Origin: Alphaproteobacteria bacterium
Lineage (GTDB): Bacteria > Pseudomonadota > Alphaproteobacteria > JAAEOK01
Length of the DNA: 64,000 nucleotides
Direction: 5' to 3'
NCBI GenBank assembly: GCA_024244705.1
Contig: JAAEOK010000033.1
Coordinates: 146,534-210,533, forward strand
A program made the translations under genes and the position numbers. Each line of letters opens with the position of its first letter. The first letter of the stretch is position 1. Below, in pieces: positions 2,804 to 20,697 of the stretch. The notes under the pieces were generated by a model. That model was not told the origin of the DNA. It saw only the letters and a program-made list of their open reading frames with translations, and did no database searches.

Positions 2804-2944
2804 CTGCACAAGGACTTGCATTATTTCCGGCGGGCGGTGGCCGGCATTCGGCAGCCGCGGATCCAAACCGTTCATCCGCCGTTCAGGTGGGCGCTGCTAC
2901 TCCCTGGCCCAAGACATCGTCCCCCAACCACGGGAGCACGTATC

Positions 2945-3526
2945 ATGCGACGAATCGCGACACTCATGATCGCCATGGCGGCGCTCGGCGCGACGGCCTT
3001 GGCCGGCGCCGGGCCGGCCAACGCCGACAGCGAGCGCGACGGTTTTCGCCAGGATTTCCGCTCGAACGCGCCGTTCGGTGGTCAAACGCGCCAATGGCCC
3101 AACAACGGCGTCACCGTCCAGCGTGGCCAGATCCCCGACCACAGGCTGAATTGGACCCATCCCAACGGCGCGCCATTCCAGCATGCGACGCCCAACGGCC
3201 GCTTCCTCAATCCGTGGAACGGCCAGCCCTACGGCTTCGTCCGCCGCGGCCAGGAATTCGGCTTCAACAACCGCAACGGCCAGTTCGGCTACAACAACCG
3301 CCGCGGCCAGTTCGGCTCCAACAACCGCAACGGCCAGTATGGCTTCAACAACCGCCACGGCCAGTTCGGTTTCGAGGGCGGAAAGAACAAGTCGGGCTTC
3401 AAGAACAAGAAAGCCAGGAAGCACGCATTCAAGAAGAAGCAGTGGCGCAAAAACCAGGCATTCGGCTTCAATCCCTGGAGCAATCAGGGATTTCGCTGGT
3501 CGAACCGGAACCGGCGTTTCGACTGA
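2945..3526 (+). CDS. small secreted protein with 9-residue tandem repeats
   Basis: This 193-aa protein has a Sec signal peptide (MRRIATLMIAMAALGATALA, cleavage probably after PANA, about residue 27). The mature part is rich in Asn, Gly, Arg, Phe and Gln. Residues 105-140 are four 9-residue repeats of the form FGxNNRxGQ, followed by a degenerate fifth and by a Lys/Arg-rich basic patch (about 147-170). No Cys is present. The composition suggests a disordered, positively charged envelope or extracellular protein. I do not recognise a family. A strong rho-independent terminator follows at 3602-3636. Confidence 0.75.
   Translation: MRRIATLMIAMAALGATALAGAGPANADSERDGFRQDFRSNAPFGGQTRQWPNNGVTVQRGQIPDHRLNWTHPNGAPFQHATPNGRFLNPWNGQPYGFVRRGQEFGFNNRNGQFGYNNRRGQFGSNNRNGQYGFNNRHGQFGFEGGKNKSGFKNKKARKHAFKKKQWRKNQAFGFNPWSNQGFRWSNRNRRFD
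3257..3364 (+). repeat. four 27-bp in-frame tandem repeats
   Basis: Four consecutive 27-bp units encode FGFNNRNGQ, FGYNNRRGQ, FGSNNRNGQ and YGFNNRHGQ. The units differ mainly at the third and seventh codons. Unit length being a multiple of three means copy number could vary without breaking the reading frame. Confidence 0.9.
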
Positions 3527-3672: not shown

Positions 3673-3828
3673 TTAGCGGCGGACGAGGGCACCCGTCTTG
3701 CGGACGCACCAAGCGGCCACAGCCACCGCCGCATCGACGAGCGGCATAAAGTATTCGCCGGGGACGGTTACCACGCCCGCGAAGGGGGGTACGCCCGAGG
3801 CCTGGATTGGTGTCGATTTGTAGGTCAT
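3673..3828 (-). CDS. possible 51-aa small protein
   Basis: The 51-codon frame begins MTYKSTPIQASGVPPFAGVV and contains a hydrophobic middle (PLVDAAVAVAAWCV) and a basic tail. GGAGGG lies 4 nt before the ATG, closer than usual. It is divergent from the nitrilase gene at 4082, and the 253-bp gap between them is less GC-rich than its surroundings and looks like a two-way promoter. I recognise no family. It may be a real small membrane-associated protein or a chance frame. Confidence 0.4.
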   Translation of the reverse strand: MTYKSTPIQASGVPPFAGVVTVPGEYFMPLVDAAVAVAAWCVRKTGALVRR

Positions 3829-3916
3829 TTCGCCCTCCGTCAAATTCGGGTAACGTCTTTGTTGCGATGCACATAAACACTCCGGACGTCTTTGTCCCAC
3901 GTAATTTCATCAATAG

Positions 3917-4081: not shown

Positions 4082-5041
4082 ATGACGCCTTTTGCCATCG
4101 GCGGAATCCAAATGCATGTCGCAGCGGCGCACGAGAATGTCAGTCACATGAAACGGCAGCTCGACCTTCTCATGGCCCGGTTTCCCTGGGTGCAGATGGC
4201 GGTCTTCAGCGAACTTGCGGCATTTGGCCCGATACCGGCCCACGCCGGGTCGTTCGAGCGAACCGAAGAGGCGATGGCGTCGTGGGCGCGCCACCACGGC
4301 ATCTGGCTGGTTTCCGGATCGATGTTCGAGCACGCCGGCGATGAGCTCTACAATACCTCGACCGTGTTCTCGCCCGACGGCGGCATCGCCGGCCGCCACC
4401 GCAAGCTGTTTCCGTTCGCACCCTACGAACAGGGTGTCACGCCGGGCACCAAATTCCTCGCCTTCGACGTCCCCAAGGTCGGCCGTTTCGGAGTCTCGAT
4501 CTGCTACGATATCTGGTTCCCGGAGACCACGCGGACGCTGGCTGCCATGGGCGTCGAGGTACTGCTGCACCCGGTTCTCACCGGCACTATCGAGCGCGAT
4601 GTCGAGGTTTGCATCGCCCGCGCGACCGCGGCCATGTTCCAATGTTATGTCTTCGACATCAACGGCCTCGGCGCCGGCGGCTATGGCCGGTCCGCGGTCT
4701 TCGACCCGGCCGGCACCTTGCTCTATCAGGCGGCCGGCCAGGAGGAATTGATCCCGATCGAGATCGACCTCGCTCAGGTCCGCCGCCAGCGTGAGACCGG
4801 CTTGCGCAGCCTCGGACAACCGCTGAAGAGTTTCCGCGATCGGCGGGTTGAATTTCCCGTCTACCGGCGCGATGCGCCGGGTTTCGAATACCTCGACACA
4901 CTGGGGCCCCTCGCCATGCCGGCGCGGGGCACGCGCGCCGGACTCGGCGAACATGCCGACGAGGCCGCCGCCGATGCCGACGAACCGAGCGCGGCGGGAC
5001 CCTTCGAAGTGATCGACGGCACGTCCAAGAAAGTGGGCTAG
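4082..5041 (+). CDS. carbon-nitrogen hydrolase (nitrilase superfamily amidase)
   Basis: This 319-aa protein carries the full nitrilase catalytic triad: Glu44 (VFSELAAFG), Lys108 (GRHRKLFPF) and Cys141 (SICYDIWFPE). These enzymes hydrolyse a linear amide, carbamoyl or nitrile C-N bond through a cysteine acyl-enzyme in the cytoplasm. The last ~40 residues (Ala/Asp/Glu-rich) are an extension beyond the fold. It begins a same-strand run with a decarboxylase 37 nt downstream. N-carbamoylputrescine amidases belong to this family, so a role around decarboxylated amino acids is plausible, but substrate is not shown by sequence. Confidence 0.85.
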   Translation: MTPFAIGGIQMHVAAAHENVSHMKRQLDLLMARFPWVQMAVFSELAAFGPIPAHAGSFERTEEAMASWARHHGIWLVSGSMFEHAGDELYNTSTVFSPDGGIAGRHRKLFPFAPYEQGVTPGTKFLAFDVPKVGRFGVSICYDIWFPETTRTLAAMGVEVLLHPVLTGTIERDVEVCIARATAAMFQCYVFDINGLGAGGYGRSAVFDPAGTLLYQAAGQEELIPIEIDLAQVRRQRETGLRSLGQPLKSFRDRRVEFPVYRRDAPGFEYLDTLGPLAMPARGTRAGLGEHADEAAADADEPSAAGPFEVIDGTSKKVG

Positions 5042-5078
5042 AGCGCTACGTAACCTTCGGCTACGGCGGAAAACCGAT

Positions 5079-7874
5079 ATGCCAAATGACGACCAATCGG
5101 TTGTGCAGACCGGCCCGGCTCTCAGCGAATACTACAACGCGTCCCAGCTCCGCGCCGATTCGTGGAGCCGGCTCAAATCGGCGACGGCGCTGCTCGTCGA
5201 ACGCGGTGACAGCGCGCCGAGCGCCGATCAACTCAAGCTGCAGATCATCGACCTGTTGAAACTGCTCGGCCCGATCGAGGGCTACTGGGCCTTTCCCGGC
5301 CGCCTGGCGTTCAGCGAGTTGCGCCGGCTTCTCGACAGCGGCGAGCACGAGATTCTGGCCCGGGTGGTCGCGCGTATCGTGCGCGCCTTGATGAGCAACG
5401 CCTATCGCCAAAAGACGATCCCGCTTGGGCTGCACGGCGAAATCGAGGAGGACGACGACACCAACCTGAGTACCGAATCGACCGAGGAATCGGTCCATGC
5501 GCGGCCCTATTTCGAGGTCCTCATCGTCGACAAGCTGAACCTGGCACAGGAGCAGGCGGTCCGGCACAGCCTGCGCAAAATGCGGCGCGACGAGGACCGC
5601 TTCATCTATGAAGCGGTAGTCGTGCCGAGCTTCGAGGATGCGATCATCGCGGTGCTCCACAACCACAACCTCCAGGCGGTCGTCGCGCGCTACGGCTTCC
5701 CGCTGAAATCGCAGCACAACATGGCGCTGCTCCACCGCTATCTGACACGGGTCGATGCCGACAAGCTATCGGACCTGCCGCCCGACGAATACGGACCGCA
5801 GCTGGCCAAATGCATCGGCAAGGTGCGGCCCGAACTCGACGTCTACCTGGTCACCGACCGTTCGGTCGAGGACGTGGCCGGAAGGGTGACCGAGAACTGC
5901 CGCCGGGTGTTCTACAATCAAGAGGATTACTTCGAGCTCCACCTCAACATCCTGCGCGGCATCAACGAGCGCTGGGAGACCCCGTTCTTCAACGCGCTCC
6001 GCGAATACAGCCGGCAGCCGACCGGCGTCTTCCACGCCATGCCGATCTCGCGCGGCAAGTCGATCACCAAGTCGCATTGGATCCGCGACATGGTCGAGTT
6101 CTATGGCCTCAACATCTTCCTCGCCGAAACGTCGGCCACCTCGGGCGGGCTCGATTCGCTGCTCGACCCGCACGGCCCGATCAAGAAGGCGCAGGAATCG
6201 GCGGCACGTGCGTTCGGCGCCCGGCGTACCTATTTCGCCACCAACGGCACCTCGACCTGCAACAAGATCGTCGTCCAGGGCTTGGTGCAGCCCGGCGACA
6301 TCGTCCTGGTCGATCGCGACTGCCACAAATCCCACCATTACGGCATGGTCCTGTCGGGCGCCCATGTCGTCTATCTCGATTCCTACCCGCTCGACCAATA
6401 TTCGATGTACGGCGCGGTGCCGCTGCGTGAAATCAAGCACGCTTTGCTGCGCCTCAAGCACGCGGGAAAGCTCGACCGCGTCAAGATGCTGCTGCTGACC
6501 AATTGCACCTTCGACGGCATCGTCTACAACGTCGAACGGGTGATGATGGAATGCCTGGCCATCAAGCGCGACTTGGTCTTCCTGTGGGACGAGGCGTGGT
6601 TCGGCTTCGCCCGCTTCGGCCCGACCTATCGCCAGCGCACGGCGATGTGGACCGCCGAGCGGCTCTGCGAACGCTTGAAGAGCGACGAATACCGCGCCGC
6701 CTATGACGACTTCCGCCGCGAACACGATGCCCTCGACCCCGACGACGACGCGACTTGGCTCGATCGCGCGTTGATGCCCGACCCCGACCGGGCCGTGGTC
6801 CGCGTCTATGCCTGCCAATCGACCCACAAGACGCTGACCTCGCTACGCCAGGGATCGATGATCCATGTCTACGATCAGCACTTCAGCACCAAGGTCGAGG
6901 ATTCGTTCCACGAAGCCTACATGACCCACACCTCGACATCGCCCAACTACCAGATCATCGCCTCGCTCGATCTCGGCCGCCGCCAGGTCGAGCTCGAGGG
7001 TTTCGAGCTGGTCCAGAAACAGGTCGAGATGGCGATGGTGCTGCGGCAGAAGGTGATGAGCCATCCGCTGCTGCGCAAGTATTTCCGGGTCCTCACCGTC
7101 GAAAACATGATCCCGGAACAGTATCGCGGGTCGGGGATCACCAAATACTACGATCCCGAAGACGGCTGGTCGCGCATTTGGGAAGCCTGGGCCAACGACG
7201 AGTTCGCCCTCGACGCGACCCGCCTGACCCTGTTCGTCGGCGATGTCGGGGTCGACGGCGATACCTTCAAGAACCGCTACCTGATGGACAAGCACGGCAT
7301 CCAGATCAACAAGACGTCGCGCAATACCGTGCTGTTCATGACCAACATCGGCACCACGCGAAGCTCGGTCGCCTACCTCATCGAGGTCCTGGTCAATATC
7401 GCCAACGATCTCGACGAGCAGCTCGGCGACGCCAGCGCGGCCGAGCAGCGGGTCCACCGGCGGCGGGTGCGATCGTTGACCGAAGACCTGCCGCCGCTGC
7501 CCGATTTCAGCCGCTTCCACGACGCCTTCCGGCCCGACCCCGGCGGCGCGACGCCGGAGGGCGATATTCGGCGGGCATTCTTCCTCGCCTATGACGATGA
7601 ACATTGCGACTACATGCCGATCGAGGACGACGCCATCGACCGCATCATCGGCGACGGCGGCGAGGTGGTATCGGCGATGTTCGTCATCCCCTATCCGCCC
7701 GGATTCCCGATCCTGGTCCCGGGCCAAGTGGTCAGCGCCGAGATCCTGGCCTTCATGCGGGCGCTCGACGTCAAGGAGATCCACGGCTACCGACCGGAGC
7801 TCGGTCTCCGTGTCTTCCGTCCGGAAGCGCTCGACGAAATATTGCAACCGGCACCGCCGAAAGCGGCGGAATAG
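5079..7874 (+). CDS. PLP-dependent Orn/Lys/Arg-type decarboxylase
   Basis: This 931-aa protein matches the fold-type I decarboxylases of the ornithine/lysine/arginine group: an N-terminal response-regulator-like wing domain (about 145-290), then the PLP domain with substrate-side SATSGG and TNGTSTCNKI, Asp504 (LWDEAW) pairing the PLP nitrogen, and the Schiff-base lysine Lys584 preceded by His583 (CQSTHKTLTS). Typical members are 700-760 aa, so about 170 extra residues are spread over N-terminus, an acidic insert near 515-575 and the C-terminus. It would decarboxylate a basic amino acid to a diamine or agmatine. The exact substrate is open. The ATP-grasp gene follows 36 nt downstream. Confidence 0.85.
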   Translation: MPNDDQSVVQTGPALSEYYNASQLRADSWSRLKSATALLVERGDSAPSADQLKLQIIDLLKLLGPIEGYWAFPGRLAFSELRRLLDSGEHEILARVVARIVRALMSNAYRQKTIPLGLHGEIEEDDDTNLSTESTEESVHARPYFEVLIVDKLNLAQEQAVRHSLRKMRRDEDRFIYEAVVVPSFEDAIIAVLHNHNLQAVVARYGFPLKSQHNMALLHRYLTRVDADKLSDLPPDEYGPQLAKCIGKVRPELDVYLVTDRSVEDVAGRVTENCRRVFYNQEDYFELHLNILRGINERWETPFFNALREYSRQPTGVFHAMPISRGKSITKSHWIRDMVEFYGLNIFLAETSATSGGLDSLLDPHGPIKKAQESAARAFGARRTYFATNGTSTCNKIVVQGLVQPGDIVLVDRDCHKSHHYGMVLSGAHVVYLDSYPLDQYSMYGAVPLREIKHALLRLKHAGKLDRVKMLLLTNCTFDGIVYNVERVMMECLAIKRDLVFLWDEAWFGFARFGPTYRQRTAMWTAERLCERLKSDEYRAAYDDFRREHDALDPDDDATWLDRALMPDPDRAVVRVYACQSTHKTLTSLRQGSMIHVYDQHFSTKVEDSFHEAYMTHTSTSPNYQIIASLDLGRRQVELEGFELVQKQVEMAMVLRQKVMSHPLLRKYFRVLTVENMIPEQYRGSGITKYYDPEDGWSRIWEAWANDEFALDATRLTLFVGDVGVDGDTFKNRYLMDKHGIQINKTSRNTVLFMTNIGTTRSSVAYLIEVLVNIANDLDEQLGDASAAEQRVHRRRVRSLTEDLPPLPDFSRFHDAFRPDPGGATPEGDIRRAFFLAYDDEHCDYMPIEDDAIDRIIGDGGEVVSAMFVIPYPPGFPILVPGQVVSAEILAFMRALDVKEIHGYRPELGLRVFRPEALDEILQPAPPKAAE

Positions 7875-7910
7875 GGCGCGCACGCCCAGCGGGGCCGAAT
7901 AACAAGGGAG

Positions 7911-9413
7911 ATGAACGTGGCGGCCAAGAAATCGACGTCGAAGAAGCCTGCAAAATCCGCTGCCCGGCCGCGGTCACGGCGCAAGAAACTCAACGGCATT
8001 TCCGATATCCGGCGCTATTTCCACCGCAACGAAACGCCGATCTATTTCATCAGCGCGACCAACTTCAACCTGCTCGGCATGGATGAATGGTGCCGCAATT
8101 TCAAATACGTCAACTACCTGGATTGTTACGACGGCCGCCACCCCAACACGTTCGTTCCCAGCGAGGCGCCGCACCAGGAGTTCGAGAGCATCGAGGACAT
8201 CAACAACTACATGCTCCAGCACAAGGAAGTGTTGGATTACATCAAGGCCGGGGGGCGCAACCCGAAGGCGGCGTTCCTGATGTTCGACCAGAAGACCGAG
8301 CAGTTGGCGCGCCGCGCCGGCATGCAGGTGTGGTTCCCCAAGGCCAAGCTGCGCAACCGGGTCGACGACAAGATCGAGACCGTGCGCATCGGCGACCGGG
8401 CCGGCGTGCCGAGCGTCCCCAACATCCTGGCCAAAGTCGAGGACTACGCGGACCTGCGCGCCAAGGCCAAGAAGCTCGGCGAAGATCTCGTCATCCAGTC
8501 CGCTTACGGCGATTCGGGCCACACCACCTTCTTCATTTCCAACGAAGGCGATTGGAAGCGCCACGCCGACGAAATCGTCACCGCCGGCGAGGTCAAGATC
8601 ATGAAGCGCATCCGCTGCCGTGGGTCGGCGATCGAGGCCTGCACGACGAAAAAGGGCACCATCGTCGGGCCGCTGATGACCGAGCTGGTTGGGTTCCGCG
8701 AGTTGACGCCCTACAAGGGCGGCTGGTGCGGCAACGAAATCTTCGCCGAGGCGTTCACCCCGCAAATCCGTCAGACGGCGCGCGACCTGACCTTCAAGTT
8801 CGGCGAAGAACTGCGCAAGACCGGCTATCGCGGCTATTTCGAGCTCGACTTCCTGATCGACCAGGACACCGGCGACATCTGGCTTGGCGAGCTCAACCCG
8901 CGGGTCACCGGCGCCAGCTCGATGACCAATCACGCCGCCTTCGCCCACGCCGACGCGCCGCTGTTCCTGTTCCACCTGTTGGAATTCTCGGGCATCGATT
9001 TCGAGCTCGACATCGATGCGGTCAACGGGCGCTGGGCCGACGCCGAAAACATCGACAGCTGGAGCCAGGCGGTGATCAAGCACACCGATGATTCGGTCGA
9101 CATCCTGACCGCCGCGCCGCAATCGGGCATCTACCACATGAACCCGGACGGCTCGGTCGAGTTTGCACGCTTCGACTATCACCGGCGCGCGGTGGCGAGC
9201 GAGAACGAGGCCTTCTTCCTGCGCATTTCCGACGTCGGCGACTACCGCTACGAAGGCGCCGATCTCGGTATCCTGATCACGCGTGGCCGGCTGATGACCA
9301 AGAATTTCCGCCTCAACGACCGGGCGCGCAAGTGGATCAAGGGATTCCGCGATAAGTTCGCCGGCAAGTCGCTGACCCCGCGGCTCGAACCCGGCGCATT
9401 CAAGATTCTCTAG
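7911..9413 (+). CDS. ATP-grasp ligase (biotin-carboxylase-like, no biotin domain)
   Basis: This 500-aa protein has a Lys/Arg/Ala-rich first 30 residues and then an ATP-grasp fold: glycine-rich loop VIQSAYGDSGHTTFFI (about 190-205) and the metal/ATP residues Glu311 (FELDFLID) and Glu327/Asn329 (GELNPRVTGA). Databases often label such proteins biotin carboxylase, but there is no BCCP or carboxyltransferase partner here. The fold more generally joins a carboxylate, via acyl phosphate, to an amine. AAGGGAG abuts the ATG at 7911, so a GTG at 7917 with normal spacing may be the true start. It lies between the decarboxylase and a C45 amidase/acyltransferase, which suggests it ligates or activates a product of the pathway. 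Confidence 0.8.
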   Translation: MNVAAKKSTSKKPAKSAARPRSRRKKLNGISDIRRYFHRNETPIYFISATNFNLLGMDEWCRNFKYVNYLDCYDGRHPNTFVPSEAPHQEFESIEDINNYMLQHKEVLDYIKAGGRNPKAAFLMFDQKTEQLARRAGMQVWFPKAKLRNRVDDKIETVRIGDRAGVPSVPNILAKVEDYADLRAKAKKLGEDLVIQSAYGDSGHTTFFISNEGDWKRHADEIVTAGEVKIMKRIRCRGSAIEACTTKKGTIVGPLMTELVGFRELTPYKGGWCGNEIFAEAFTPQIRQTARDLTFKFGEELRKTGYRGYFELDFLIDQDTGDIWLGELNPRVTGASSMTNHAAFAHADAPLFLFHLLEFSGIDFELDIDAVNGRWADAENIDSWSQAVIKHTDDSVDILTAAPQSGIYHMNPDGSVEFARFDYHRRAVASENEAFFLRISDVGDYRYEGADLGILITRGRLMTKNFRLNDRARKWIKGFRDKFAGKSLTPRLEPGAFKIL

Positions 9414-9426
9414 AACCGGTGCGTGC

Positions 9427-10425
9427 ATGGACTTCACCTTTCAGTCGATCGACGAGGATCTGCCCGGGCCGAAATGGCGCGCCCTGTTCGACCGGCTGTG
9501 GCCGGCCTATCGGGAATGGTTCCTGGCCGAGGGCATCGAGCAGCGGGCGACCTATGTCGAAAGCCGCGACCAGATCGAACGGCACATGCCGCGGCTGACG
9601 CCGACCTACGACCGGCTGGTCGAACTCGCCGGCGGCCAGGACCTGGTCGCGCGGTTCCTCTCGCTTTACAACCCGCCCGGCTACATCGCCGGCTGTTCCC
9701 AGGTCGTGTGGCCGGGAGACGAGCCGGTGCTGATCCGCAACTACGATTATGCGCCGGGCGCGACCGACGGTGTGATCCTGCATTCGTCGTGGAACGGCAT
9801 GCGCGCGATCGCCATGGTCGATTCGCTGATCGGCGCCCTCGACGGGGTCAACGAGGCCGGTCTGGCGGTGAGCCTGACTTTCGGCGGGCGCCGCGTGCGG
9901 GGCGACGGTTTCGGCGTGCCGATCATCGTCCGCTACCTGCTCGAGTTCTGCGAGACAACCGCCGAGGCGGCCGAGGTGTTGGCGCGGGTGCCATCGTTCA
10001 TGGCCCACAACGTGACCGTTGTCGACCGCGGCGGCAAATTCGTCACCGCCTTTCTGTCGCCCGACCGGCCGGCCGTGGTGCGCCAGATCCCGATCGCCAC
10101 CAACCACCAGGGCGAGGTCGAGTGGCACAACCATGCCCGCGCCACGGCGACGCTGGAACGGGAGAATTTCCTCTCCTTCCGCCTCTCCGACCCGGCGATG
10201 ACCGCGCCCCGGCTGGCCGACGCCTTTCTCCGGCCGCCGCTCTATACCCGCGCCTATGCCCAGGGCTATGGCACCATCTATACGGCGGTCTATTACCCGC
10301 GCCGGGGACTGGCCGAATACCGCTGGCCGGGTGTCACGTGGCGGCTGTCGTTCGACGATTTCAAGGATGCCAGCCACGACATCACCTTTGCCCCGGCCGA
10401 GAGCGTGATCCCGCTGCGGCGGTGA
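9427..10425 (+). CDS. C45-family autoproteolytic acyltransferase/hydrolase
   Basis: This 332-aa protein resembles the Ntn-hydrolase family of acyl-CoA:6-aminopenicillanate acyltransferase. GYIAGCSQVV places Cys90 as the nucleophile that is normally freed by self-cleavage of the preceding Gly-Cys bond. The conserved RNYDY follows at about 103-107 and NEAGLAVSLTFGG and VPIIVRYLLE further on. The mature enzyme would thus have an 89-residue small chain and a 243-residue large chain. These enzymes make or break amides at peptide or amino groups. It begins 13 nt after the ATP-grasp stop, so translational coupling is likely. Confidence 0.85.
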   Translation: MDFTFQSIDEDLPGPKWRALFDRLWPAYREWFLAEGIEQRATYVESRDQIERHMPRLTPTYDRLVELAGGQDLVARFLSLYNPPGYIAGCSQVVWPGDEPVLIRNYDYAPGATDGVILHSSWNGMRAIAMVDSLIGALDGVNEAGLAVSLTFGGRRVRGDGFGVPIIVRYLLEFCETTAEAAEVLARVPSFMAHNVTVVDRGGKFVTAFLSPDRPAVVRQIPIATNHQGEVEWHNHARATATLERENFLSFRLSDPAMTAPRLADAFLRPPLYTRAYAQGYGTIYTAVYYPRRGLAEYRWPGVTWRLSFDDFKDASHDITFAPAESVIPLRR

Positions 10426-10481
10426 CGGAGTCGGACGCCGCGGTGCCGGTAGCGAGCGCCCGTCGAACCAAAGGGAAAACA

Positions 10482-10802
10482 ATGACCGAGAACCGATTTC
10501 AGAGGAGCCGCTTCGATGCGCAACTGGTCGCGCGGGCCCGTAAGGACCCGGACTTTCGCCGTCGCCTCGTCGCCGATCCACGCGGCGTCTATGGCGAGGC
10601 ACTGAAGTCTGCAATGCCGGGCCATGACATCCCCGAAGGGGTCGAAATCAGGATCGCGGAAGAGGCCGAGAACGTCTTCTATGTTGTCCTGCCGTGTATT
10701 CCGCCCTCGATGCATCTGAGCGACGACGCGCTCGACCGGGTCGCCCGGCATGAACAGACCCATCGCGATCCCTGCTGGCGTTTGGGCGACGCACCCGAAT
10801 AG
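10482..10802 (+). CDS. NHLP-like small protein (nitrile-hydratase-like leader)
   Basis: This 106-aa protein begins after AAAGGGAAAACA. Residues 13-72 follow the nitrile-hydratase-like leader pattern: LVARARKDPDFRRRLVADPR, then PEGVEIRIAEEAENVFYVVL and Pro71. In known NHLP systems this part guides modification enzymes and is later removed. Here it is followed by 34 residues (CIPPSMHL to WRLGDAPE) with two Cys and several His, and no clear GG or AG cleavage site. It is the last gene of the operon. It could be a precursor peptide, a carrier protein or a degenerate hydratase fragment. The first two fit the enzymes upstream better. Confidence 0.7.
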   Translation: MTENRFQRSRFDAQLVARARKDPDFRRRLVADPRGVYGEALKSAMPGHDIPEGVEIRIAEEAENVFYVVLPCIPPSMHLSDDALDRVARHEQTHRDPCWRLGDAPE

Positions 10803-13422: not shown

Positions 13423-14991
13423 ATGGCCGCACCGAATCTCCTACCAGATAGACCGGAAGTTTTCTTGGCACTCGTTGGAGCGGTCGGTACAGACCTCAAC
13501 CTAATAGTTCAGGTCCTGACCGAAGAGTTACGTAACACGGGTTACAACCCTAGCGAGATTCGTCTAAGCAAATTGATTTCGGAATGCTATGCATTTAGGT
13601 CGCTAAAAGCTAAACAGACCGGCGCAGAAAACAAGCGAATTGACGCTCATATGAATGCGGGCAACAGTCTGCGAAAAAGGATGGATGATGGTAGCGCGGT
13701 CTCCTTACTAACCGTCCGCGAAATCAGGCAAATACGCGAGAATCTCACAGGAAAACCTAACGAAGCGATAGCGCAGAAGGCGTATATACTTAATTCGCTT
13801 AAACATCCTGATGAAATTAAGATTCTACGTAAGATCTATGGACCGTTCATTTTTGTAATCTCGGCATATGCTCCACGAGAAGAGCGGATCGATCGACTTT
13901 CCAAACTCATCGCAAAATCTGTTCATTCAAGTGATAAGCATAAATTTCGGAACGACTCCGAATCTTTAGTCGAAAAGGATGCAAAAGAAATTGCGAATCC
14001 TCTCGGCCAAAACGTCCGAGATACATTTCCAGCGGCTGATTTTTTTGTAAGAATGGGCCTAAAGGAAGAGATAAGAAAACAAATAAAACGATTTATTTCT
14101 CTATTATTTAGGCAACCGTATATTACACCAAACATCGATGAATACGGAATGTTCTTGGCACATACGGCATCCTTGCGGTCGGCTGACCTTTCGCGACAAG
14201 TAGGTTCAGTGATTCTAACTGAACGCGGTGAAGTTCTGGCAACTGGCTGTAACGAAGTGCCTAAGGCAGGCGGGGGCGCGATTTGGGAAGGCACATCAAA
14301 TTTCGAAAAAAGGGACTACCGAGACTTTAGATTGGGATACGACTCGAGCTCTCGTGTCAAAGAAGAGCTAATTGCGGAAATATTTAATGAAATAAAACCG
14401 TGGCTCTCGGATAGATACCGGACAAAAACGCCCAAAGCGCTTGTAAATCTCGCTTTATATGATGGAATTGATGATCAAAGCCCCCCTCTAAAAAATGCAC
14501 GCGTGGCCAACATCCTAGAATTTGGCAGGATGGTTCACGCGGAGATGTATGCATTAACGGAGGCAGCTCGGTTAGGCAATTCCGTCAAATCTGCGCACCT
14601 ATATAGCACTACTTTTCCGTGTCATATGTGTGCCCGCCACATCATTTCGTCGGGATTAGCTAGGGTTGTCTATATTGAGCCCTATCCAAAGAGTTTGGCA
14701 AAAGAGCTTTATAATAAGAGCATTAATGTGGATGGGGATATGGCTGATGACGATGCTGTGATTTTTGAACCATTTATGGGGATTTCGCCGCGACGGTACG
14801 GCGAATTTTTTGCTATGAGAGATAGAAAAGACGAAAAGGGAAATGCCCTAGACTGGAACCCTGCAAAATCAAAACCAATAATATCAGAAAATTTCGTAAC
14901 ATACCTTGATGCTGAAACAGCAATTTCGGCGTATTTGGATGACAAAAGGATTGAATTTGGGTTGGTTCGACCTACTAGACGAAAAAGCTGA
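13423..14991 (+). CDS. anti-phage dCTP/dCMP deaminase (AvcD/DCD type)
   Basis: This 522-aa protein combines an N-terminal nucleotide-kinase-like region (LALVGAVGTDL, residues 16-25) with a C-terminal cytidine/deoxycytidylate deaminase domain: zinc and proton-shuttle motif His372-Ala-Glu374 and Cys400/Cys403 (TTFPCHMCARH). This two-part design and length match AvcD/DCD defence proteins, which deplete dCTP or dCMP during phage infection. The frame opens only after a TAA at 13414, so ATG 13423 is the start; no clear ribosome site precedes it. Codon use is AT-rich, unlike all neighbours, consistent with recent transfer. Confidence 0.9.
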   Translation: MAAPNLLPDRPEVFLALVGAVGTDLNLIVQVLTEELRNTGYNPSEIRLSKLISECYAFRSLKAKQTGAENKRIDAHMNAGNSLRKRMDDGSAVSLLTVREIRQIRENLTGKPNEAIAQKAYILNSLKHPDEIKILRKIYGPFIFVISAYAPREERIDRLSKLIAKSVHSSDKHKFRNDSESLVEKDAKEIANPLGQNVRDTFPAADFFVRMGLKEEIRKQIKRFISLLFRQPYITPNIDEYGMFLAHTASLRSADLSRQVGSVILTERGEVLATGCNEVPKAGGGAIWEGTSNFEKRDYRDFRLGYDSSSRVKEELIAEIFNEIKPWLSDRYRTKTPKALVNLALYDGIDDQSPPLKNARVANILEFGRMVHAEMYALTEAARLGNSVKSAHLYSTTFPCHMCARHIISSGLARVVYIEPYPKSLAKELYNKSINVDGDMADDDAVIFEPFMGISPRRYGEFFAMRDRKDEKGNALDWNPAKSKPIISENFVTYLDAETAISAYLDDKRIEFGLVRPTRRKS

Positions 14992-15416: not shown

Positions 15417-15989
15417 TCAGAGATATTCCTTGGCCGCGTCCTCGAGCCAGTCGAGCAGATATTCAGCCATCGACCAGCGCACCTGCAGGTCATAGGTCGG
15501 CGCGTCGTCGACCTGGACGATCATGATTGTGGCGTGGGCGAGCCGGGTCTGGGCGCATTGGCCCGGCGCGAATACTCTGGGATGAATATCGAGCGGCGTG
15601 CCCTTGACCAACAGGTCGCGGGCCCGCGGGCCGGTCACCCGGATCGTGGTGTAATAGTCGGAGACGTCGGTGACCGCCGCATGCTGGCCGGCCAGCCCCT
15701 CGGCCAACACGCCGGCAATCGCACTTTCGCCGCCTTCATCGGTGGTCACCTGCCATTCGTCGGGGCCGAGCCAGCAGATTGTCGCGCCATCGCCGCCGGC
15801 GATGGTGTTGGGCGCGGTTGGCAGATCGACGCCGGTGGCCGTCGCGACCGCCTTGACGAAGGCCTTGTCGCCGCCATCGCCGCGGATATTGACCTTGCCG
15901 AGGAGCGGGCGTTCGAGGATGGCGACACCGCCGCCGGCAGTGCCGGCGCGCCCGGTCAGCGGGGTGGTCGCGCGGATCGCGTCAGCCAC
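15417..15989 (-). CDS. soxG: sarcosine oxidase gamma subunit
   Basis: This 190-aa protein begins with GTG at 15989, overlapping the soxA stop by 8 bp. Content such as ICWLGPDEWQVTTDEG, DVSDYYTTIRVTGPRARDLLVKG and WSMAEYLLDWLEDAAKEY is characteristic of SoxG, a GCV_T-like small subunit. It is the last gene of the soxBDAG operon. The complex oxidises sarcosine to glycine and transfers the methyl group to tetrahydrofolate. Confidence 0.93.
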   Translation of the reverse strand: MADAIRATTPLTGRAGTAGGGVAILERPLLGKVNIRGDGGDKAFVKAVATATGVDLPTAPNTIAGGDGATICWLGPDEWQVTTDEGGESAIAGVLAEGLAGQHAAVTDVSDYYTTIRVTGPRARDLLVKGTPLDIHPRVFAPGQCAQTRLAHATIMIVQVDDAPTYDLQVRWSMAEYLLDWLEDAAKEYL

Positions 15990-18900
15990 GGGCGCGTTCT
16001 CCTTCCTTGTCGAAAAACACCGGGTCGGCCACGGTCACCGCCTCGACCCGCCCGCCGAGCAGGGGTGCGTGCAAGGTTTCGCCCATGCGCGCGCGCCCAT
16101 TCTCGACCAGAGCGAGGGCGATCGACCGCCCGACGTTGGGGGTGTCGTAGCTCGAGGTCACGTGGCCGATGGTCTTCATCGGCGGCTGCGGCAACACCTC
16201 GTCGACCAGATGGGCGCCCTCGGGCAGCACGAAATCCGGGTTCTCGGTCAGCAGGCCGACCAATTGCTTGCGACCCTCGCGCGCCGTGTCGGGCCGGCTC
16301 AGCGAACGCTTGCCGAAGAAATCGGGCTTGGTCTTGGACACGATCCAGTCCATGCCGAGATCGTAGGGCGTGACCGTGCCGTCGGAGTCCTGACCGACGA
16401 TGATGAACCCCTTCTCGGCGCGCAGCACGTGCATGGTCTCGGTGCCGTAGGGGCAGATGCCGTATTTCTGGCCGCCCGCCATCAGCGCCTGCCACAGGCC
16501 GAGCCCGTAACGCGCCGGCACATTGATCTCATAGGACAGGTCGCCGGTGAAGCTGATGCGGTAGATTCGGGCGGGAACGCCGGCCACGGTGCCGTCCTGC
16601 ACCGCCATGAAGGGAAAGGCCTCGGCGACGAGATCGAGATCGGTGAGTTCGGCGAGGAGAGCGCGGCTGTTGGGTCCGCTGATCGTCGCCACCGCCCATT
16701 GCTCGGTCACCGAGGTGCAATAGACCCGCATCTCCGGCCACTCGGTCTGCAGCCATTCCTCGAGCCAGCTCAGCACGCGGGCGGCACCGCCGGTCGTCGT
16801 CGTCATGTGGAAATGATTGTCGCCGAGCCGCGTCGTCACGCCGTCGTCGAAGACCATGCCGTGCTCGTTCAGCATCAGCCCGTAGCGGCACCTGTTGACG
16901 CCCAGCTTGGTCCAGGCGTTGGTATAGACCATGTTGAGGAAGTCGGCGGCGTCGGGGCCTTGGATGTCGATCTTGCCGAGCGTCCCGGCGTCGAGAATGC
17001 CGACGCTCTCGCGCGCCTCGGCGCATTCGCGGCGCACCGCCTCGCCCATGGTCTCGTTGCCGCGAGGAAAATAGCGCGGCCGCTTCCATTGCCCGACATC
17101 CTCGAACACGGCACCGTTGGCGACATGCCACGGATGCATCGGCGTCTTGCGCACCGGGTCGAAGAGATGGCCGCTGTTGCGTCCGGCGACGGCGCCGAAG
17201 GTGAGCGGCGTATAGGGCGGCCGGTAGGTGGTGTGGCCGACTTCGGGGATCGCCGCCTCGCGAATGTCGGCCATGATCGCCAGCGCGTTGAGGTTCGACG
17301 TCTTGCCCTGGTCGGTGCCCATGCCGGTCGTGGTGTAGCGCTTGAGGTGCTCGACCGAGACGTAGCCCTCGCGCGCCGCCAAGTGGACGTCCGCCGCGGT
17401 GACGTCGTTCTGGAAATCGACGAACCGCTTGCGGCTGCGCCCGGTACGCCGCCCGCCGGGCAGGATCGACAACACCCGCTTGGGGCTTTCCTCGATCTCC
17501 TCGACCGGCGGGGTCTTGGGCGTCTTGCCCTTGCCGAACCCGGCATCGGCCGCCGCCGCGCGGCCGGCCGCGAAGCCTTCCGTCAAGGCCTCGGCGAGCC
17601 GCCCGGCGCCGTTGCAGGCACCGGCCGAGCGCACCGCCTGGGGCGAGTGGTCGGGCACGAAAGTGCCGAGGCCCTCGTCGTAGCGCAATTTGCCGCGCGA
17701 CTGGCTGAACAGATGCACGGTCGGGTTCCAGCCGCCGGACATGGCGACGAGATCGACGCCGAGCGAGATCGGCGAGCCGACCACCCCGGTGGCCGCCGCA
17801 TCGAGCTCCTGGATCGCGGCGCGGTCGACGCGCAGCCGACCCGAGGTGCTGGTCACCGTGTTGCCGGGCAGCACGTCGATGCCGGCCTCGCGCACCAAAT
17901 CGCGCAGCGGGCCGTATTCGTCGGGCCTGAGATCGGCGATGGTGACCTTGGCGCCGGCGCGCCGCAAATCGAGCGCGGTGCGATAGGCGCTGTCGTTGTT
18001 GGTCACCACCAGCGCCTCGCGGCCGGGGCGCACCGCATAGCGGTTGACGTAGCTGCGGACGGCGCCGGCCAGCATGACGCCTGGCCGGTCGTTCTGGGGA
18101 AACACCAGGGGCCGCTCGAGCGCGCCGCAGGCCAGCACCACCTGCTTGGCGCGGATACGCCAGAATCGCTGGCGTGGAATATGGCCGTCCGGTTCTGTGC
18201 CGAGATGGTCGGTGACCCGTTCGACGCCGACCAGGAAATTGTGGTCGTAATAACCGGTGATCGTGGTCCGCGGCAGAACCCGGACCTCGGCCATGGCGGC
18301 CAGTTTTTCTCGGGCCGCGGCAACCCAGTCGAGGGCCGGCGCGCCGTCGATCTTGGCCGCCAGGTCGGTCAGTAGCCAGCCGCCGATCTCGGCCTGTTCG
18401 TCGGCGACGATGACGCGGGCCCCGTTCGCACCCGCTGCCGCCGCGGCCGCCAGCCCGGCCGGTCCGCCGCCGACGACCAGCACGTCGCAGTGGGCGTGGA
18501 CCGCTTCGTAGCGGTCCGGATCGGGCCCCGTCGGCGCCTTGCCGAGCCCGGCTGCTCTGCGGATCCCGTGCTCGTAGGTCTCCCACTGGGAGGGCGGCCA
18601 CATGAAGGTCTTGTAGTAGAAGCCGGCCGGCAACAGGCGCGACAGGACGTTGTTGACTTCGCCGATGTCGAACTTGAGATTCGGCCACCGGTTCTGGCTG
18701 TCGGCGACCAGCCCGTCATAGAGCGCCTGCACGGTGGCTCGCGTGTTGGGGTCGGATCGCGCGCCGCGGCCGAGCTGGAGCAGCGCGTTGGGCTCCTCGG
18801 CGCCGGCCGAGAGGATGCCGCGCGGGCGATGGTACTTGTAGCTGCGGCCGACCAGGTGAACGTCGTTGGCGAGCAGCGCCGAGGCCACGGTGTCGCCGTC

Positions 18901-18993
18901 GAAACCGGCATAGCGCTTGCCGTCGAAGGTGAAGGTGACGGGCCGGTCGCGGTCGATCCGGCCGCCGCTCTCGAGGCGGTTGACCTGGCTCAC
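15982..18993 (-). CDS. soxA: sarcosine oxidase alpha subunit
   Basis: This 1003-aa protein is the usual SoxA length. It has an N-terminal 2Fe-2S-ferredoxin-like fold (residues about 15-105), a dinucleotide-binding motif VLVVGGGPAGLAAAA (171-185), a disulfide-reductase-like NAD domain, and a C-terminal GcvT aminomethyltransferase domain from about 620. It starts with GTG at 18993; GTGA overlaps the soxD stop. It binds NAD+ and passes the methylene group to tetrahydrofolate. Confidence 0.95.
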   Translation of the reverse strand: MSQVNRLESGGRIDRDRPVTFTFDGKRYAGFDGDTVASALLANDVHLVGRSYKYHRPRGILSAGAEEPNALLQLGRGARSDPNTRATVQALYDGLVADSQNRWPNLKFDIGEVNNVLSRLLPAGFYYKTFMWPPSQWETYEHGIRRAAGLGKAPTGPDPDRYEAVHAHCDVLVVGGGPAGLAAAAAAGANGARVIVADEQAEIGGWLLTDLAAKIDGAPALDWVAAAREKLAAMAEVRVLPRTTITGYYDHNFLVGVERVTDHLGTEPDGHIPRQRFWRIRAKQVVLACGALERPLVFPQNDRPGVMLAGAVRSYVNRYAVRPGREALVVTNNDSAYRTALDLRRAGAKVTIADLRPDEYGPLRDLVREAGIDVLPGNTVTSTSGRLRVDRAAIQELDAAATGVVGSPISLGVDLVAMSGGWNPTVHLFSQSRGKLRYDEGLGTFVPDHSPQAVRSAGACNGAGRLAEALTEGFAAGRAAAADAGFGKGKTPKTPPVEEIEESPKRVLSILPGGRRTGRSRKRFVDFQNDVTAADVHLAAREGYVSVEHLKRYTTTGMGTDQGKTSNLNALAIMADIREAAIPEVGHTTYRPPYTPLTFGAVAGRNSGHLFDPVRKTPMHPWHVANGAVFEDVGQWKRPRYFPRGNETMGEAVRRECAEARESVGILDAGTLGKIDIQGPDAADFLNMVYTNAWTKLGVNRCRYGLMLNEHGMVFDDGVTTRLGDNHFHMTTTTGGAARVLSWLEEWLQTEWPEMRVYCTSVTEQWAVATISGPNSRALLAELTDLDLVAEAFPFMAVQDGTVAGVPARIYRISFTGDLSYEINVPARYGLGLWQALMAGGQKYGICPYGTETMHVLRAEKGFIIVGQDSDGTVTPYDLGMDWIVSKTKPDFFGKRSLSRPDTAREGRKQLVGLLTENPDFVLPEGAHLVDEVLPQPPMKTIGHVTSSYDTPNVGRSIALALVENGRARMGETLHAPLLGGRVEAVTVADPVFFDKEGERARG

Positions 18994-19271
18994 GGCGCCA
19001 CCTTCGGCGGCTTGTCGCCGACCTTGTAGCTACCGCGGATCTTATCGCTGACCGTATCGCGGGCGACGTTGAACCAGCGCCGGCAACCGTGGTCGTGGAC
19101 CCAGCGCTCGTGATGCAGGCCCTTCGGGTTGCTACGGTAGAAGACGTAGTCGGCCCACTCGGCATCGCTCAGCTTGTCGGGTTCCTTGGGCCGCGCGATA
19201 TGGGCCTCGCCGTGGCAGGAGAACTCGGTCTGGTCGCGCGGGCCGCACCACGGGCACTCGATCAGGAACAT
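18990..19271 (-). CDS. soxD: sarcosine oxidase delta subunit
   Basis: This 93-aa protein begins MFLIECPWCGPRDQTEFSC and ends with GCRRWFNVARDT. The CPWC, SCHGEAH and GC motifs supply the zinc site of SoxD. WADYVFYRSNPKGLHHERW is diagnostic of the family. The start at 19271 has CAGGGG upstream. It overlaps soxA by 4 bp. Confidence 0.95.
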   Translation of the reverse strand: MFLIECPWCGPRDQTEFSCHGEAHIARPKEPDKLSDAEWADYVFYRSNPKGLHHERWVHDHGCRRWFNVARDTVSDKIRGSYKVGDKPPKVAP

Positions 19272-19346
19272 GTCATGGCCCCCTGCGGTAGTGGCGACGA
19301 CGGTAACGAATTGACTCCACGCTATCACGGCGCGTGATGGCGACGA

Positions 19347-19418
19347 CCCCCTCACCCCAACCCTCTCCCCCACTTTCTGGGGAGAGGGAGGGACCCGCGC
19401 AGCGGGAGGGTGAGGGGG
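19347..19418. repeat. REP-like palindromic element inside the sox operon
   Basis: CCCCCTCACC (19347-19356) is the exact complement of GGTGAGGGGG (19409-19418), with further internal pairs (CTCTCCCC and GGGGAGAG). This layout resembles the interspersed palindromes common between genes in proteobacteria. It lies in the 175-bp gap between soxB and soxD, where it could stabilise or attenuate the transcript. Confidence 0.75.
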
Positions 19419-19446
19419 TTGCCGTCAGCACAGGCATCGCCGCCTC

Positions 19447-20697
19447 TTAGTGCGCGACGGCGGCGGCGGCCGCCTCGTCGATCAGATAGCCGGTCTCGAA
19501 GCGGTGCAGGCCGAACGGCGCGGCGACCTCGTCCGGCTCGCCGCGGGCCAGCGTCGCCGCGAAGCAATGGCCCGACCCCGGCGTCGCCTTGAAACCGCCG
19601 GTGCCCCAGCCGCAATTGATGAACAGATTTTCGACCGGGGTCTTGCCGATGATCGGGCTGCGGTCCCGCGTGACGTCGACGATGCCGCCCCACTGGCGCA
19701 GCATGCGCAGGCGTGAGACGACCGGGATCAGCTCGCTGAGCGGGCCCATGATGTGGTCGATGACATCGAAGCTGCCGCGCTGCGAATAGGAATTGTAGAG
19801 GTCGGAACCGGCGCCGATGACGAGCTCACCCTTGTCCGACTGGCTGCAATAGACATGCACCGTGTTCGACATAACGACGCACGGGTGAATCGGCTTGATC
19901 GGCTCCGAGACCAGGGCCTGCAGCGGGTTCGAATCGATCGGCAGGCGGAAGCCGGCCATCTCCGCCAGTACCGAGCAGTGGCCGGCGACGACCATGCCGA
20001 CCTTGCCCGCCTTGATCGTGCCGCGCGTGGTTTCGACCGCGGTGACCGCGCCGCCGTCGATCTGAAAGCCGGTGACCTCGCAGTTCTGGATGATGTCGAC
20101 GCCGCGTTCGTCGGCGGCCCGGGCATAGCCCCAGGCGACGGCGTCGTGGCGGGCGGTCCCGCCGCGGCGCTGCAGCAGCGCGCCGAGGATCGGATAGCGC
20201 GCGTCGGGCGAGGTGTTGAGGATCGGACAAAAGGCGGCGACCTGGGCCGGAGTGAGGAATTCCGCATCGATGCCGTTCAGGTAATTGGCGTGGCCGCGGC
20301 GGCCGATCTCCTGCAGGTCGTGGACGGTGTGAGACAGGTGCAGCAGCCCGCGCTGGCTGAACATGATATTGAAGTTGAGATCCTGGCTCAGACCTTCCCA
20401 CAGCTTGACCGAATGGTCGTAGAGCGCGGCGCTCTCGTCCCACAGATAGTTGGAGCGCACGATGGTGGTGTTGCGGCCGGTGTTGCCGCCGCCGATCCAG
20501 CCCTTTTCCAATACCGCGACGTTGCGGATGCCGTGGTTCTTGGCCAGGTAATAGGCGGTCGCCAGGCCGTGGCCGCCGCCGCCGATGATGACGACGTCGT
20601 ATTCCGGCTTCGGCTTCGGGCTGCGCCACGCCGCCTGCCAGTCCTCGTGGTAGGACAGCGCATTGCGCATCAAGCTGAAGATCGAATATTTCGCCAT
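19447..20697 (-). CDS. soxB: sarcosine oxidase beta subunit
   Basis: This 416-aa FAD-dependent subunit begins [20 protein letters not shown]. It has the Rossmann motif [18 protein letters not shown] near residue 35, the [18 protein letters not shown] segment, [13 protein letters not shown] (the His is the likely covalent FMN site, from family knowledge) and a C-terminal [16 protein letters not shown]. It is the first gene of soxBDAG and oxidises sarcosine. The start at 20697 is set by homology; upstream DNA to 20857 is non-coding and probably contains the promoter. Confidence 0.95.

Follow-up and report, generated by a model that had tools for sequence, protein, structure and literature searches.

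Four adjacent genes of an alphaproteobacterial genome, which code for a nitrilase-family amidase, a PLP-dependent decarboxylase, an ATP-grasp ligase and a C45-family enzyme, probably form a conserved catabolic operon that leads arginine-derived amines towards GABA and succinate, with arginine as the presumed substrate. They lie in a stretch of 64,000 nucleotides, referred to here as the window, from a genome of 4.5 Mb in 127 contigs, which is 97% complete and is the sole representative of its order among the genomes examined. A fifth gene on the same strand, coding for a 106-aa protein that resembles NHLP leaders, is probably not part of the operon and rather a lineage-specific neighbour without a demonstrated role.

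Gene layout and enzyme families

The ORF calls in the window give five plus-strand reading frames between positions 4082 and 10802, with gaps of 37, 36, 13 and 56 nt. The gene arrangement described in the initial annotation was thus recovered in full, and its assignment of the four enzymes to the nitrilase, PLP decarboxylase, ATP-grasp and C45 families was confirmed by Pfam and NCBIfam models (Table 1). In a sequence comparison, the catalytic residues of the nitrilase, decarboxylase and C45 proteins were found in place. A promoter and terminator scan returned nothing above chance. Elsewhere in the window, a 51-aa ORF called by the codon model (3676-3829, minus strand, divergent from the operon; MTYKSTPIQASG...) matches no Pfam or NCBIfam family, and a 236-aa protein with Asn/Phe/Gly-rich repeats (2816-3526, plus strand; FGFNNRNGQFGYNNR...) matches no Pfam family. 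A 522-aa protein (13423-14991, plus strand) matches the PADLOC dCTPase anti-phage model with 514 bits and carries a cytidine deaminase domain, and a sarcosine oxidase-like group (15982-20697, minus strand) comprises a 1003-aa alpha subunit (GCV_T, SO_alpha_A3, Fer2_4) and a DAO-type subunit.

Table 1. Genes of the operon and the adjoining reading frame, with window positions and model scores.
Feature	Position	Strand	Model score
Nitrilase-superfamily amidase, first gene of the conserved operon	4082..5041	+	CN_hydrolase 108.8 bits
PLP-dependent Orn/Lys/Arg-type decarboxylase, 931 aa	5079..7874	+	OKR_DC_1 258 bits
ATP-grasp carboxylate-amine ligase (NF005096/PRK06524), annotated 'biotin carboxylase'	7911..9413	+	767 bits vs cut-off 684
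C45-family autoproteolytic N-terminal-nucleophile amidohydrolase/acyltransferase	9427..10425	+	NF040521 177 bits vs 85
NHLP-leader-like 106-aa protein, degenerate; judged to be probably outside the conserved operon	10482..10802	+	TIGR03793 62.7 bits vs 50.9

The catalytic triad of the amidase (E44, K108, C141) is invariant across 66 homologues, and a homologue lies upstream of the decarboxylase gene in most loci. An assignment as N-carbamoylputrescine amidase AguB, and with it to the known AguB route, was rejected, as the protein reached only 68.4 bits with TIGR03381, which has a cut-off of 410.

The decarboxylase contains the PLP lysine K584 within an STHK motif, together with D504 and H416, and K584 aligns with the PLP lysine of Rv2531c, AdiA and LdcI. 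The OKR_DC_1 domain and the lysine in STHK place it in group III (fold I) of the Orn/Lys/Arg decarboxylases, and with all models of the characterised subfamilies it scored far below the cut-off. It matches the PDB entries 9n0n/9n0o over the full length with an E-value of 3e-257. A review assigns these entries to Rv2531c of M. tuberculosis, the structure of which was solved without a known activity (PMC12910592); Rv2531c (PDB 9n0n, 9n0o, 9n0p) is a full-length homologue that has the N-terminal extension in common with the window protein. We infer that the latter is probably an arginine decarboxylase, with lysine and ornithine as the other candidate substrates.

The ligase contains the motif E327-x-N329-x-R331, whose three named residues are invariant among homologues; these were found in all loci and are 53-77% identical where measured. 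In biotin-dependent carboxylases, E-x-N-x-R is followed by QVEH, the bicarbonate/base stretch. When pyruvate carboxylase (EVNPRIQVEH) is aligned with the ligase (ELNPRVTGAS), QVEH is replaced by TGAS, and the annotated name biotin carboxylase is thus unsupported. A Foldseek search with the AlphaFold model (mean pLDDT 70.7) matched ATP-grasp carboxylases with an E-value of 1.9e-13; many ATP-grasp enzymes match equally, so the fold indicates the superfamily only and singles out no reaction. The protein is more likely a carboxylate-amine ligase that forms amides.

The C45 protein belongs to its family by the family score, by the N-terminal nucleophile Cys and, in the predicted structure, by the Ntn fold. 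The predicted nucleophile Cys90 is invariant among homologues. The structural neighbours of the AlphaFold model (pLDDT 80.6) are isopenicillin N acyltransferase (2x1c, the top match, E-value 5e-14) and related amide hydrolases. Acyl-CoA:isopenicillin N acyltransferase, itself a C45 member, has the predicted fold and the predicted autoproteolytic Cys in common with the window protein, whereas identity is 15% and the gene context differs.

Conservation of the operon

Scanning 84,980 species genomes for the ligase yielded 289 relatives, the best 80 of which were kept with their flanks. Together with six stretches from the search of the class and nine plasmid records, they make up 96 loci, including a few near-duplicates, in which the genes were called by codon-scored calling. 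Within the class, the ligase is present in 9 of 385 genomes. In 69 of the 96 loci, the genes for amidase, decarboxylase, ligase and C45 enzyme share a strand and follow each other in this order, in 65 of them with gaps below 300 nt; they therefore are a real functional unit beyond a chance cluster. Loci with the operon come mostly from alpha- and gammaproteobacteria. Taken singly, the ligase is present in all 96 loci (by construction), the C45 enzyme in 94, the decarboxylase in 89 and the amidase in 80, and many of the incomplete loci stop at a contig border. Conservation is strongest in decarboxylase and ligase, with 375 and 232 invariant positions. The initial annotation had treated five genes as one operon, which the survey upholds for the four enzymes and not for the NHLP-like gene.

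In the open-access literature, to which the search was confined, no description of a cluster with this gene combination was found, and the papers on SMa0680/SMa0682 of S. meliloti give no activity. Several loci deviate from the common arrangement. A divergent ligase (L122, 6836-9948) has a class III aminotransferase as its sole partner and lacks decarboxylase, C45 enzyme and amidase. On one Rhizobium leguminosarum plasmid (L126) the decarboxylase is split over two frames and the C45 gene is cut short, and on another (L130) a second, diverged ligase copy follows the first; both operon copies are apparently decaying, and glutamate dehydrogenase-like genes lie nearby. Nitrile hydratase alpha subunits (one of them at G000 C18:54210-54755) occur in 8 of 9 operon-bearing genomes of the class and in 133 of 376 others (Fisher p 0.002); since kinship and genome size confound this comparison, the link was set aside.

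Arginine and GABA genes beside the operon

Among the 96 loci, the neighbours of the operon include a GABA transaminase (GabT) in 23, a fused TAXI-TRAP transporter in 21, a PuuR-like regulator in 19 and an agmatinase-type ureohydrolase in 8 (within 10 kb). That GabT adjoins only 23 of the 96 is a counterpoint to a reading as arginine-to-GABA catabolism. GabT (TIGR00700, 606/594 against a cut-off of 507) and succinate-semialdehyde dehydrogenase (SSADH, 864 against 828) beside the operon score above their cut-offs, and the PuuR-like regulator remains under the PuuR cut-off with 140 bits. In a locus from Arenicellales (L025) the gene order is SSADH-GabT-amidase-decarboxylase-ligase-C45, and in L031 and L074 a class III aminotransferase gene overlaps the C45 gene. 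Uptake systems of the Dpp/Opp or TAXI-TRAP type adjoin the operon, and their kind varies between lineages.

Four loci, from Thiofilum (L041) and from rhizobial plasmids (L127, L132, L133), contain ligase and C45 enzyme and no PLP decarboxylase. There, the ligase-C45 pair runs together with genes for a permease, an agmatinase-type ureohydrolase, a 5-guanidino-2-oxopentanoate (2-ketoarginine) decarboxylase (769/737 against a cut-off of 500), an aldehyde dehydrogenase, a D-amino-acid dehydrogenase, a racemase and RidA; in the rhizobial plasmids the amidase gene is divergent and upstream of this run. This racemase/AruI set is found in 4 of the 7 loci without the PLP decarboxylase and in none of the 89 with it. 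Since the four loci sit in two separate, well-supported places of the ligase tree, the exchange of the decarboxylase for the racemase/AruI set probably happened at least twice. L133, filed as a plasmid of Roseateles XES5, groups with the Rhizobiaceae plasmids. The element common to the two alternative entry routes would be arginine, or possibly ornithine, because the rhizobial AruI homologue IlvB1 prefers 5-amino-2-oxopentanoate, the ornithine-derived keto acid (PMC7268258).

In the genome of the window, a ureohydrolase gene lies approximately 6 kb upstream of the operon with unrelated genes between them, and is thus weak evidence. Neither an agmatinase nor an agmatine deiminase is encoded in the window operon, which differs in this from the known arginine decarboxylase route to putrescine and speaks against the arginine reading; both families are present elsewhere in this genome. 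The idea that the operon stands in for missing agmatine genes was rejected, as 15 of 29 operon genomes contain agmatine deiminase-type genes and 26 of 29 contain ureohydrolases.

Proposed pathway and comparison with known systems

The pathway proposed here, for which we infer the order of the steps and the amide that is made and cut, would begin with the conversion of L-arginine to agmatine by the PLP decarboxylase. With ATP, the ligase would then couple the pathway amine to a carboxylate (that of an amino acid or of an omega-amino/guanidino acid) and so give a protected amide. A class III aminotransferase and an aldehyde dehydrogenase, whose genes are linked to the operon in some loci and unlinked in others, would oxidise the free end of this amide. 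The C45 enzyme and the nitrilase-family amidase would open the amide bonds to release the omega-amino acid, and GabT and SSADH would complete the route. The first step would fall in some lineages to racemase, D-amino-acid dehydrogenase and 2-ketoarginine decarboxylase instead. Ligase and C45 enzyme are best read as a pair that makes and breaks an amide. The full proposal, namely a widespread and apparently undescribed route in which an Rv2531c-type decarboxylase makes agmatine, the ligase turns agmatine or its product into a protected amide, and C45 enzyme and amidase deprotect towards GABA, is a tentative one.

Two known systems are close to this proposal. The genes of the AruH/AruI arginine transaminase/dehydrogenase route, in its variant with racemase and D-Arg dehydrogenase leading to 4-guanidinobutyrate and GABA, are those grouped with ligase, C45 enzyme and amidase in the four loci without the decarboxylase, and for this route, as for the arginine-to-succinate network of S. 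meliloti, the end products GABA and succinate are expected alike (PMC7268258, PMC2242806). However, the window uses a PLP decarboxylase, and the known AruH/AruI route contains neither ATP-grasp ligase nor C45 enzyme. The Puu pathway (PuuA/PuuC/PuuD/PuuR), which proceeds through gamma-glutamylated putrescine, resembles the proposed logic of ligation, oxidation and deprotection, and GabT and a PuuR-like regulator occur near the operon. In Puu ligation chemistry, protection is by gamma-glutamylation through PuuA. The Puu ligase is of the glutamine-synthetase type and its hydrolase is class I glutaminase-like, whereas the operon has an ATP-grasp ligase and a C45 Ntn hydrolase. The operon would be a variation on arginine-to-GABA catabolism, itself known, with a gene set that is apparently undescribed in the open-access literature. 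To the question raised with the initial annotation, whether decarboxylase and ligase belong to a known polyamine route, the answer is divided: the context is that of arginine-to-GABA catabolism, but no described route with the ligase and C45 steps was found.

Alternative readings and the NHLP-like protein

The chief objection to the proposed pathway is that the racemase/AruI set is, by textbook, a complete route to GABA that needs no ligase, C45 enzyme or amidase; these three may therefore act before arginine or on a side product. They could, for instance, serve as an input module: an amide or peptide conjugate of arginine, or of a similar basic amino acid, would be imported and opened by C45 enzyme and amidase, the ligase would trap the freed amino acid or conjugate it again, and breakdown would follow through either the decarboxylase or the racemase/AruI set. 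This would account for the presence of the three enzymes beside either arginine-consuming route and for the adjoining Dpp/Opp-type or TAXI-TRAP uptake systems, and the predicted C45 fold is closest to amide hydrolases of conjugates. We nevertheless regard it as unlikely: hydrolysis needs no ATP-consuming ligase, no known conjugate is indicated, and the transporters vary across lineages. A biosynthetic role, in which decarboxylase and ligase make an amide-conjugated diamine, such as a carnosine-like solute or a polyamine conjugate, that C45 enzyme and amidase recycle, would agree with the strong conservation of decarboxylase and ligase, and many host names point to marine or halophilic organisms. 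GabT, SSADH, the PuuR-like regulator, the ureohydrolase and the racemase/AruI set, however, point to breakdown and make such a role quite improbable.

The initial annotation proposed that a basic amino acid, once decarboxylated, is attached to the 106-aa protein or to a metabolite that this protein carries, in which the ligase would do the joining. The ORF of this protein is probably coding, since a codon model with the operon as its training set calls it as well, and its position on the same strand, 56 nt away, and its TIGR03793 score above the cut-off speak for a connection. It aligns with NHLP-leader RiPP precursors through the leader, but it lacks the Gly-Gly leader end that is a feature of these precursors (PMC2887384): VARH stands in place of VAGG (LSDDALDRVARH), where six other NHLPs carry GG, and the 18-aa tail (RHEQTHRDPCWRLGDAPE), which contains a single Cys, a single Thr and no Ser, is not a Cys/Ser/Thr-rich core. 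The window genome contains no YcaO, its best ABC match to an NHLM-type transporter reaches 328 bits against the TIGR03796 cut-off of 853, and none of its 16 radical SAM matches is inside the window; the earlier remark that the classical NHLP partners are absent thus holds for YcaO and transporter in the genome and for radical SAM in the window. By the published description, the 106-aa protein is an NHLP-leader homologue and not a standard RiPP precursor (PMC2887384).

Beside other operons, the gene is missing altogether, although the four enzymes are conserved across two classes; the initial annotation had itself named the lack of a conserved NHLP-like gene next to the other four as evidence against its proposal. 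With the window protein as query, no NHLP relatives were found in the approximately 95 other operon loci, and a profile of seven NHLPs, at E-values up to 10, matched only L101-L110, loci fetched as weak TIGR03793 matches, and no operon locus other than that of the window. Most of the TIGR03793 matches in L101-L110 consist of a pair of stretches within a single frame of about 200-300 aa, and they therefore look like nitrile hydratase alpha subunits. When whole genomes were searched, an NHLP above the cut-off turned up in 2 of the 76 other genomes with the operon, and in none of the stretches fetched around their operons, and no relative of the 106-aa protein was found at 1e-6 among 398 genomes of the phylum sample. 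Only position ties the gene to the operon. After the neighbourhood, motif and transporter tests, the RiPP reading of the operon was rejected, and conjugation to the 106-aa protein or its cargo is highly improbable. While a role for this protein finds no support, the more general idea that a basic amino acid is decarboxylated and then enters the making and breaking of amides is supported. Separately, the Tistrella mobilis plasmid pTM2 (L135, 6222-7291) carries three tandem NHLP genes beside a convergent gene annotated as cyclic peptide export ABC transporter, with no modifying enzyme annotated within 7 kb of them.

With a false RiPP lead removed, the proposed arginine-to-GABA route gives three enzymes a testable role through the link to arginine and GABA genes. 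Among them is the ligase, whose relatives in proteobacterial genomes number in the hundreds (289 in one scan) and which has been carried under a misleading name. For the Rv2531c family of decarboxylases, the operon context is a first lead on a possible substrate.
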